This document shows positions 4,332 through 7,887 of a stretch of DNA of 64,000 nt, in pieces. Both the position numbers and the translations under genes were made by a program. The DNA is from Pseudanabaenaceae cyanobacterium SKYG29. GTDB lineage: Bacteria; Cyanobacteriota; Cyanobacteriia; Pseudanabaenales; Pseudanabaenaceae. Location of the stretch: positions 372,001 to 436,000 of the forward strand of contig JANWWT010000001.1 of NCBI GenBank assembly GCA_025055675.1, written 5' to 3'. Position 1 is the stretch's first letter; each line of letters starts with the position of its first letter. Under the pieces are notes generated by a model that had not been told where the DNA came from, made no database searches, and saw nothing but the letters and a program-made list of their open reading frames with translations.

Positions 4332-4988
4332 GTGATTGTGGGACAGGGAAAACGGCTTTGGTACGGTGCCATGGGTATCGTGATCTCGATCGGTTTACTG
4401 TTATTTGCACCCGCTTGGTATGTCAATTTTGTCACGCAAAAATTGCGCCACACGCAGATAGATGCCGTCGAACCAACTAGGGTAGGAATTGTATTTGGGG
4501 CAGGAGTTTACGCCGATGGCACACCAACCCCCATGCTTGCCGATCGGTTAGACCAAGCCATTGCTCTCTACCAACAGGGTAAAATTCAAAAAATCTTGAT
4601 GAGTGGGGACAACGGTAGTAGTGACTACGATGAAGTAACCAATATGCAACGCTATGCCATCGATCGGGGCATACCTGCCAGCGCAATTACTCTAGATTAT
4701 GCTGGCTTTTCCACCTATGATACCTGTTACCGTGCCCGTGTTATTTTTGGTGTAGAAGCAGCCATTTTATTGAGTCAGTCCTTCCATTTACCCCGTGCGG
4801 TTTACACCTGTCAACAACTGGGAATCAGAGCACAGGGACTAGGGACGAATGATGAATTGAGATATAACCGATCGACCTTAAATTACTACCAATTGCGTGA
4901 GACTATGGCGACTATCAAAGCCCTGTGGCAGATACACATTACCCATGCCAAGCCCAGATTTCTGGGTAAATTTGAAGGAATTAAATGA
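4332..4988 (+). CDS. DUF218 (YdcF/SanA/ElyC-like) envelope protein
   Basis: 218 residues. One N-terminal membrane helix (GAMGIVISIGLLLFAPAWYV), then a DUF218 domain: VGIVFGAGVYADGTPTPML, ILMSGDNGSSDYDE, a T-x-T-C segment STYDTCYRARVIF, and LLSQSFHLPRAVY. In E. coli, SanA and ElyC of this family affect envelope integrity and peptidoglycan precursor handling; the catalytic role is not settled. The GTG start is supported by GGGGAG six bases upstream. It begins 11 bases after the YrdC-family gene, so the two probably form an operon. Confidence 0.82.
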   Translation: MIVGQGKRLWYGAMGIVISIGLLLFAPAWYVNFVTQKLRHTQIDAVEPTRVGIVFGAGVYADGTPTPMLADRLDQAIALYQQGKIQKILMSGDNGSSDYDEVTNMQRYAIDRGIPASAITLDYAGFSTYDTCYRARVIFGVEAAILLSQSFHLPRAVYTCQQLGIRAQGLGTNDELRYNRSTLNYYQLRETMATIKALWQIHITHAKPRFLGKFEGIK

Positions 4989-5071
4989 CATTAACTTTCA
5001 AGCCATTTCAAGTTTACAAAAGATATAACTGGCATATGTTAAGATTTTATTGCTGAACAAGTATCAACATC

Positions 5072-5602
5072 ATGAATGTTCTGTCTGTCAACCTCAGCCT
5101 TCCCTGGGCAAAAATAACCAGACTGTTCCTAGGTGATGCTCAACTGTCGCTAGAACAACGAATACTAAACTTCAATACCCTAGTAGGAATTATCTTTTGT
5201 TTGCTTGCTCTTTTTTCTGATCGTCTTATAGGGTTGAACCTTCTTACTGCCGTATTTATTGTTCCTATAACCCTGATATTTGCAATTTTATACTACCTCT
5301 GTCGGCAGCAACGACCACATCAAGGGCTGTTGGTGGTGCAAATAATGTCTCTGTTTATACTGATGCCAATGATCTGGTGTGTCAATGACGGAACAAAAGG
5401 ACCTGTATTTGCAGTCAGCTTAACTACTATTCAATATTTGACTGTAATTGCCAGACCGAGGTGGATTGCTCTAATTTTCGTCCTCATGTTAGTGACAGCC
5501 ACGGGTTTCATTAGGATTGCACACCCTGAATTTATTATTCCTTATCCAACAGAATTTGCTCAAGCCAGTGATACTTTTTTTCTTTTATATTTGCAAGTAT
5601 AG
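5072..5602 (+). CDS. Membrane sensor domain, 5' part of a frameshift-split histidine kinase gene
   Basis: 176 residues with about five hydrophobic segments (for example LVGIIFCLLALFSDRLIG and FIVPITLIFAILYYLC), an integral membrane sensor module like those ahead of cyanobacterial PAS kinases. The frame ends at TAG 5600-5602 just after a run of seven T (5575-5581). Adding one base there joins it to the next frame, giving a last membrane helix (FASIVTFCNNYFVIK) and the coiled coil and PAS domains of the kinase. I regard 5072-7887 as one gene of about 938 residues with a minus-one frameshift. Whether this is a real mutation, transcript slippage or a sequencing error cannot be told here. Confidence 0.75.
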   Translation: MNVLSVNLSLPWAKITRLFLGDAQLSLEQRILNFNTLVGIIFCLLALFSDRLIGLNLLTAVFIVPITLIFAILYYLCRQQRPHQGLLVVQIMSLFILMPMIWCVNDGTKGPVFAVSLTTIQYLTVIARPRWIALIFVLMLVTATGFIRIAHPEFIIPYPTEFAQASDTFFLLYLQV

Positions 5603-5766
5603 TAACTTTCTGTAACAATTATTTTGTCATTAAACAATACGAACAGGAACAAGAGAAACTGCGAGCTACACAGTCCCATCTGCAAACCTCAGAGTCTAAA
5701 TTCGCTACAATTTTTCGTGACAGCCCCCAACCTGCTTGGATTGCGACTTTTGAGGAAGGACGTTGT

Positions 5767-7887
5767 TTGGATGCCAATCAGAGCTTTTGTAATTTAATTG
5801 AAAGAGAGTTAGAGGATATAATTGGCAAAACCTGCCGTGATATTAGTTTGTGGTGTAACACTAATGATTTTTACAAGCTACACAGCTGTTTGACTAATGA
5901 AAGACAAGTAAAAAATCTGGAGGTCAGCTGGCAGACAGGTTCAGGAACTAACAAAACAGTCTTGTTATCAGCACAGGTTACTACTATCAATGGGCAGGAA
6001 TGTGTAATTGGTGTAGCTTCCGACATCACCGATCGCAAACAACTAGAGAATAGCCTCAGGCAAAGTGAGCAGAAATATCGCCAACTGACAGAAAACTTAC
6101 CAGGGGTTGTCTATCAATATTTCCTGGGTGCAGATGGAACAGAAAGATTTGACTACATGAGTCGGCAAGCTAGGGAACTATTTGGGTTTGACCCAGAACA
6201 AGTATTGGCAAATCCGCAGTTAGCCTGGAGTTTAGTGCATCCTGATGATGTGGCGAAGGTAAAAGAAGAAATAGCCAAAGTAATACGAGAGAAATTGCCC
6301 CTGCTTAAATTTGACCACCGCCTAATTACTCCCCAAGGTCAACTAAAATGGGTTAGTAGCAAAGCTACTGTAACTTTTGATGCTGACGGCAATATGACGA
6401 CCGAGGGCTTTGTTATAGACATAACCGATCGGCAGTTACTAGCAGAAGCACTCAAAGAAAGTGAGGCAAGACTATTAGCAATTTCTGATATTTCCCCCGC
6501 CGCGCTTTATATTTTTGTGATGAAATCTGATGGTCACTACGAATTTGAGCATGTTGGCACTGCCCACGAAACTATCTTGGAAATTCCTATCTCTGCAATA
6601 TATGCTGATGCTTCTGTGGTAATTAAAATAATTCATCCTGAAGACATAGCTAATTATCAGGCAGCAGTACAGAAAAGCTTGCAAACAGAGGCTCCATTTT
6701 GCTGCCAATGGCGGATTATCACTCCCTCTGGCAATATTAAGTGGTTACAGGCTAGTTCCCGCCCCATCAAACGCCCCAATGGGGATATAGCTTGGTACGG
6801 TGTGATCATTGAAATTACGGAGTTAAAACAAACTCAAGCCCAGTTACAAAGTAAAGTAGAAGAACTCGATCGTTTCTTTGCTGTTACACCTGACCTACTG
6901 TGTATTGTCGACTACGAGGGGACAATGCTCAGACTAAATTTACAATGGGAGAAAACCTTAGGTTTCAGTTTAGGGGAATTAGAAGGTAGGAGATACATCA
7001 ATTTCCTTCATCCTGATGATATAGACGTAACAATCAGCGTGTGCAGATCGCTGACAAGGGGTGGGACTGTCAATGGTTTTGTTAATCGTTGTCGCACTAA
7101 AGATGGAGGTTATCGCTATCTGGAATGGTGTGCCATTGCCTGTGATGATTTGATCTATGCAGCTGCTAGGGATATAACAGAAAGGTATGAACTCGATCGG
7201 ATGAAAGATGAGTTTATTGGTATTGTTAGTCATGAAATTCGTACTCCTTTAACTGCGATTCAGGGTGCTTTAGAATTAGTGGCAGCGGGTGTATATCACA
7301 GGCGATTCGATCGGTTACAAGAAATGGTAAAAGTAGCCTACCAGAATTCCCAGCGCTTATTAGCTTTAGTGAATGACATCCTAGATTTAGAGAGGTTAGA
7401 ATCAGGTAGGCAAATCTTAGACTTTGCGGTCTGCAATGTGCAAGACCTAGTCCATGAAGCTGTCACTCTCCTGCAACCGCTCGCCAAACAAAACGACATC
7501 ACAATAGAGCAAAAAACAGTTGCTTTGGACATCACTGCCTCTGCTGATGGTATAGTCAGGGTCTTGACCAATTTGCTAAGTAACGCGATTAAGTTTTCGC
7601 CACCCCAGGGCAAGGTAGTTGTATCTGTCAGTCACCAGGAAGACAAAGCTCTGTTTAGTGTCGCTGACAATGGTCGCGGTATTCCCCCTGAGTACATCAA
7701 CAAAATTTTTAATAAGTTTCAACAGGTAGATAGTTCCGATCGGCGAGACAAAGGGGGGACAGGTTTGGGCTTGGCAATATGTAAAACGATTGTAGAGCAT
7801 CACAACGGTCGTATTTGGGTAGAGAGTACATTAGGTGTGGGTAGCACTTTTTATTTCACGATTCCCTTTGAGCGTAAATTCCTCTAA
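5767..7887 (+). CDS. Multi-PAS sensor histidine kinase (cytoplasmic part of split gene)
   Basis: The frame is open from 5572; the first start-like codon is only a TTG at 5767, inside a PAS domain, which argues against an independent gene. Four PAS domains lie roughly at 5697-6040, 6065-6440, 6460-6830 and 6860-7185, each followed by a PAC-like DITDRK/DITER segment. The dimerisation/phosphoacceptor region reads DEFIGIVSHEIRTPLTAIQG (H-box His), then an N-box NLLSNAIKFSP, G1 VADNGRGIP and G2 GTGLGLAICK. This is a class I hybrid-free histidine kinase; ligand and partner regulator are unknown and no response regulator is adjacent. The 3' end overlaps the convergent helicase gene by 57 bases. Confidence 0.85.
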   Translation: MDANQSFCNLIERELEDIIGKTCRDISLWCNTNDFYKLHSCLTNERQVKNLEVSWQTGSGTNKTVLLSAQVTTINGQECVIGVASDITDRKQLENSLRQSEQKYRQLTENLPGVVYQYFLGADGTERFDYMSRQARELFGFDPEQVLANPQLAWSLVHPDDVAKVKEEIAKVIREKLPLLKFDHRLITPQGQLKWVSSKATVTFDADGNMTTEGFVIDITDRQLLAEALKESEARLLAISDISPAALYIFVMKSDGHYEFEHVGTAHETILEIPISAIYADASVVIKIIHPEDIANYQAAVQKSLQTEAPFCCQWRIITPSGNIKWLQASSRPIKRPNGDIAWYGVIIEITELKQTQAQLQSKVEELDRFFAVTPDLLCIVDYEGTMLRLNLQWEKTLGFSLGELEGRRYINFLHPDDIDVTISVCRSLTRGGTVNGFVNRCRTKDGGYRYLEWCAIACDDLIYAAARDITERYELDRMKDEFIGIVSHEIRTPLTAIQGALELVAAGVYHRRFDRLQEMVKVAYQNSQRLLALVNDILDLERLESGRQILDFAVCNVQDLVHEAVTLLQPLAKQNDITIEQKTVALDITASADGIVRVLTNLLSNAIKFSPPQGKVVVSVSHQEDKALFSVADNGRGIPPEYINKIFNKFQQVDSSDRRDKGGTGLGLAICKTIVEHHNGRIWVESTLGVGSTFYFTIPFERKFL

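Follow-up and report, generated by a model that had tools for sequence, protein, structure and literature searches.

The window, a stretch of 64,000 nucleotides from a 2.56-Mb genome in 18 contigs (G000:C1:372001-436000), carries on its plus strand a kinase gene that spans positions 5072 to 7887 and is divided between two reading frames. Genes for Sua5/YrdC and DUF218 proteins are located upstream and a gene for a UvrD-like helicase is located downstream, as identified by Pfam on the window's copies. In the list of open reading frames (ORFs), the first frame runs from an ATG at 5072 to a TAG at 5600-5602, and its product ends in FF-LLYLQV, six codons beyond a run of seven Ts (T7). The second frame is open from 5578 up to a stop codon at 7885-7887 and contains no further stop. 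Direct reading places the T7 run at the break between the two frames, with exactly the coordinates given in the sequence-only reading (Table 1). That reading had also noted that the second part has no ATG ahead of its PAS core, which extends to the other start codons considered: no ATG, GTG, or TTG is present from 5578 until the TTG at 5767, which already lies within the first PAS match.

Table 1. Features of the split kinase gene, in window coordinates
Feature	Position	Strand	Basis or remark
First part: start, hydrophobic (membrane) segments, six codons past the T run, and TAG	5072..5602	+	176-aa ORF, hydropathy peaks
T7 run at the frame break	5575..5581	+	G002 ortholog has TTTTTCTCT at the same place
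Second part: linker, PAS repeats, HisKA, HATPase_c	5578..7887	+	Other frame, open for 769 aa
Longest ATG/GTG/TTG-started ORF of the second part	5767..7887	+	TTG start, 706 aa; weak restart candidate

Read across the break, the gene would encode an ordinary multi-PAS histidine kinase of the membrane, in a small cyanobacterium of the Pseudanabaenaceae. Pfam matches above the cut-off in the second part comprise PAS_4 in four stretches, PAS_3 in three, PAS_9, HisKA, and HATPase_c, and the first PAS matches start at second-frame residues 41 (PAS_8) and 52 (PAS_9). The domain order and the catalytic domains are, by Pfam, like those of other multi-PAS membrane histidine kinases (PAS, HisKA, and HATPase_c). 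Unlike those kinases, this copy is frame-broken, with HisKA and HATPase_c out of frame with the membrane part as sequenced, and its membrane part matches no Pfam family above the cut-off. A hydropathy scan of the read-through protein located the last hydrophobic segment at residues 169-187.

The sole ortholog found is in a metagenome-derived relative of the same genus, MAG CALGKB01 (uncultured Pseudanabaenaceae cyanobacterium; here G002), where it is one intact gene of 933 aa within an open frame of 942 codons. The gene order is the same: the ortholog follows Sua5/YrdC and DUF218 genes and precedes a gene for a UvrD-like helicase. When the G002 frame was compared to the window by tblastn, residues 10-179 aligned with 5072-5581 and residues 178-942 aligned with 5575-7884 in a different frame. 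The two parts are thus colinear with an intact gene and join at T7, in agreement with the earlier proposal that they make up one protein. At the break, the window reads GATACTTTTTTTCTTTTATA and G002 reads GATATGTTTTTCTCTTTTATA, a net difference of one base accompanied by substitutions; where the window carries T7, the ortholog has T5-C-T and no long T run. Amino acid identity to the ortholog is 49% over 170 aa in the first part and 72% in the second, and the small gaps in the DNA alignment near 5095-5102 and 5883-5897 cancel out. Measured against the intact ortholog, the frame break removes essential domains, as in a pseudogene, although an error in the consensus could give the same appearance. 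At the hydropathy threshold used for the read-through protein, the last hydrophobic segment was not reported in the G002 protein, and the predicted structure of the membrane part of that protein has a mean pLDDT of 54 and a pTM of 0.32. Separately, 15 bases (5 codons) at window positions 7699-7713, inside the HATPase domain, are absent from the G002 ortholog with the frame kept, and the relative may itself be altered.

Relative to G002, the first part has a dN/dS of 0.24 and the second part one of 0.105, versus 0.043-0.123 for four neighbor genes, all of these being rough ratios given that dS is saturated (>1 for the kinase parts and infinite for one sub-segment). Judged by these ratios, the second part shows past purifying selection like that of the four neighbors, which suggests that selection maintained the gene until recently or still does. 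The break probably arose recently, since the rest of the gene has neither a second stop nor a net frame change and has kept its HisKA and HATPase_c matches. An intact remainder would, however, also be expected if slippage still makes the protein.

Relatives of the first part were searched for in 97 genomes, including the source genome. Matches were obtained in three: the gene itself, the G002 ortholog (49%), and, weakly, a genome of the same family (G013) with two matches, both at contig ends. Distant paralogs with 26-27% identity are present in G000:C4 and G002:C11; both are intact, and they were set aside as evidence on the break site because they are too distant. A wider family of split kinases was rejected on the basis of the small number of matched genomes. 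Each paralog (L012:1762-6221 in G000:C4 and L013:2124-6547 in G002:C11) overlaps a further signaling gene of similar sequence, and the membrane part of the G000:C4 copy is followed by PAS, GAF, HisKA_2, and HATPase matches. A two-row alignment that includes the join (A1) matched 86/97 genomes, mostly through the PAS and linker part. Among the matches listed, at least six, two of them in G063 and one each in G005, G039, G060, and G090, appear from their model positions (125-160) to extend over the join, and these six lie in stop-free frames of 719-1093 codons. In the genome_contigs collection, a scan with the single protein found no relative, and the alignment scan returned the G002 record and one distant PAS-only match (23% identity); the viral_contigs scan found no relative.

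In the third genome of the genus (G001), the first part had no match, an absence that is not certain in an assembly that is ∼90% complete and in ∼390 contigs. The UvrD-like flank in this genome adjoins a gene with a PLD domain. The other flank, Sua5/DUF218, runs out close to the start of a contig, next to a short ORF that weakly matches a TNB domain. The missing match and these flanks point to a kinase gene that may be dispensable in the genus, an indication only in view of the incomplete genome. The short ORF adjoining the DUF218 gene (L081:32-319, on G001:C47) matches the Cas12f1-like TNB domain below the Pfam cut-off. It stands at the place that the kinase occupies in the two other genomes and is perhaps a transposon remnant.

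The background of frame breaks was estimated on a larger set of genes by comparing 404 kb of the source genome (the window plus 340 kb; L055-L071 beyond the window) with 316 kb of G002. In the forward direction, 148/300 G002 ORFs had an ortholog-like match, and 8 of the 148 were flagged as multi-frame. The kinase is the only within-gene break among the 148 compared ORFs; the seven other flags (three viewed as DNA and all seven as reading frames) were rejected as breaks, being upstream extensions, shadow frames, or tandem paralogs. In the reverse direction, 146/356 ORFs had a match, and 10 of these were flagged: three, seen as DNA, are G002 frame changes, three are start extensions, and four were called repeats or paralogs from coordinates only. 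The three G002 changes, on G002:C1 near 121217, 121999, and 197338, are frame-changing differences of 1, 4, and ∼62 bases at which the frames of the window genome are open, and they are candidate pseudogenes or MAG errors. Isolated breaks therefore amount to ∼0.7% (1/148) here and ∼2% (3/146) in reverse, a low background in both genomes.

The same 404-kb sample contains 192 homopolymers of ≥7. Besides the T7 of the kinase, 70 of them lie within single-frame conserved coding matches; 11 of the 70 are G/C runs of 8-10 and 6 are A/T runs of 8. These in-frame runs indicate that homopolymers are not a general weak point of the consensus. Compared with ten first-order Markov simulations, G/C runs of ≥7 are commoner (123 versus a mean of 80.5) and A/T runs of ≥7 are rarer (69 versus 90.6); the window also contains a C10 run at 1700-1709. 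T7 is not enriched in the window, with 13 matches versus 21.2 expected, and 88/100 shuffles had ≥13. The T7 run by itself is unremarkable, but a frame break within a conserved gene is beyond chance.

A consensus or assembly error could account for the break, the gene of the organism being intact and the reported sequence one T short. The break falls exactly at a homopolymer in a gene that is otherwise intact and appears to have been under past purifying selection, the assembly is in 18 contigs, and a survey of frameshifted genes expects singletons validated by BLASTp to reflect sequencing errors, not genuine indels (PMC3711429). The 70 other runs that read in frame speak against this explanation, although one isolated error would still be compatible with them. 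Consensus error is a possible account, though less likely than not, and it forms one sub-case of an unprogrammed contraction of the run rather than an addition to it.

The T run could instead be a site of recoding. T7, preceded by AC, reads as the heptamer U_UUU_UUU in the first part's frame, so a slippery heptamer of the kind found in genes with programmed −1 frameshifting is present in the zero frame, and −1 slippage on it is in the right direction to reach the intact second frame and yield the full kinase. Slippage of RNA polymerase on T7, or −1 slippage of the ribosome on the heptamer, would then supply some full-length kinase beside the truncated product, making the gene a “pseudo-pseudogene,” a possibility that has been raised for interrupted pili genes (PMC5009743). 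Leaky runs can matter, as an E. coli reporter with a two-base insertion in an A run showed ∼40% frame correction (PMC8254509). In the same report, however, the E. coli reporter retained ∼5% activity when one or two bases were deleted, and in chloroplasts A8 did not suffice for effective transcriptional slippage; bacterial transcription slippage is named for runs of nine A or T (PMC5009743), compared to seven Ts here. The window's lack of T7 enrichment likewise gives recoding no support. The split is not conserved in the one ortholog available for comparison (1/1), which is a single frame without a long T run, and this comparison is at dS >1. RNA around and downstream of the site is less stably folded than the average of its shuffles in 4/4 stretches (z +0.96, +1.12, +1.89, and +1.71), and no pseudoknot-free stimulatory structure was found downstream in these four stretches. 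Rfam searches of the window at gathering thresholds returned two tRNAs only, none at the kinase gene, and promoter-like and terminator-like matches in 4900-6000 were not in excess over shuffles.

Programmed −1 frameshifting was accordingly rejected, there being no RNA structure found in the four stretches and no conservation of the split in the one ortholog, and a programmed switch is unlikely. Recoding in the broader sense is improbable, even though it is possible that T7 leaks some full-length kinase at a low level. A more specific version, in which a leaky T7 (by polymerase or −1 ribosomal slippage) would leave a free 176-aa membrane sensor fragment in large excess over the full-length kinase, so that the break would act as a built-in dimmer, is more doubtful still.

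A T run that gains or loses Ts at a high rate could also switch the kinase on and off by phase variation. A homopolymer inside the coding region at the exact break would suit such a switch, and poly-A/T of ≥7 near a break was counted when possible phase-variation clusters were sorted in the survey (PMC3711429). Seven Ts are nonetheless short for this, the run is absent from the G002 ortholog, and with 192 runs of ≥7 in the 404-kb sample such a run is ordinary. Phase variation is therefore very improbable. Mutation, sequence error, transcriptional slippage, and phase variation had all been listed as options in the sequence-only reading; the first two emerge as the likeliest, whereas slippage and phase variation find no positive support: the sole ortholog is undivided and without the run, a run of seven is below the nine named for bacterial slippage, and no stimulatory structure was detected.

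Alternatively, translation might restart at TTG 5767 or at a non-standard start, so that a soluble kinase would be made separately from a membrane stub. The stretch GAGGAAGG upstream of TTG 5767 would fit a restart, but a comparable motif accompanies 230/2361 (∼10%) of the internal in-frame TTG codons of the sample, the TTG is second-frame residue 64, inside the first PAS match, and G002 has TTA at this position without such a motif. A restart is the most remote of the explanations considered.

The break is thus very probably an unprogrammed one-base contraction in the T run, mutation and consensus error taken together, rather than a programmed switch. The loss of one T is the simplest account of a locus whose colinear ortholog, in the same gene order, is unbroken and reads T5-C-T, and whose second part has no further stop. 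Within this reading, slipped-strand replication in the cell is somewhat favored over consensus error and has by itself a probability close to even; the contraction would then be a recent mutation in a kinase that may be dispensable. Base changes in the lineage would have built the long T run, which would then have dropped one T, in the cell or in the consensus, breaking the frame within the last hydrophobic segment or immediately ahead of it. If the break is real, ribosomes would halt six codons after the run, the product would be a 176-aa membrane fragment lacking the whole kinase portion, and the gene would be inactive except for full-length protein leaking by slippage on T7.

Comparable cases have been described. 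Singleton frame breaks are regarded as likely indel mutations or sequencing errors in the GeneTack survey of 1106 complete prokaryotic genomes (PMC3711429), and the present gene shares with the singletons of that survey a break, an intact homolog, an unsplit relative, and a poly-T of 7. Laboratory Synechocystis strains have 1-bp breaks in signaling genes (PMC4632739); those in spkA and sll1895 are likewise single-base breaks of a cyanobacterial signaling gene, but their presence was confirmed by resequencing, PCR, or Sanger sequencing, whereas the present break is read from the assembly consensus. As it stands, the locus matters little, being one more frame-broken signaling gene, and it offers a useful caution for the annotation of genomes in which homopolymers break frames. 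If slippage were demonstrated, this would be a case of recoding that sets the dose of a sensor kinase in a cyanobacterium.
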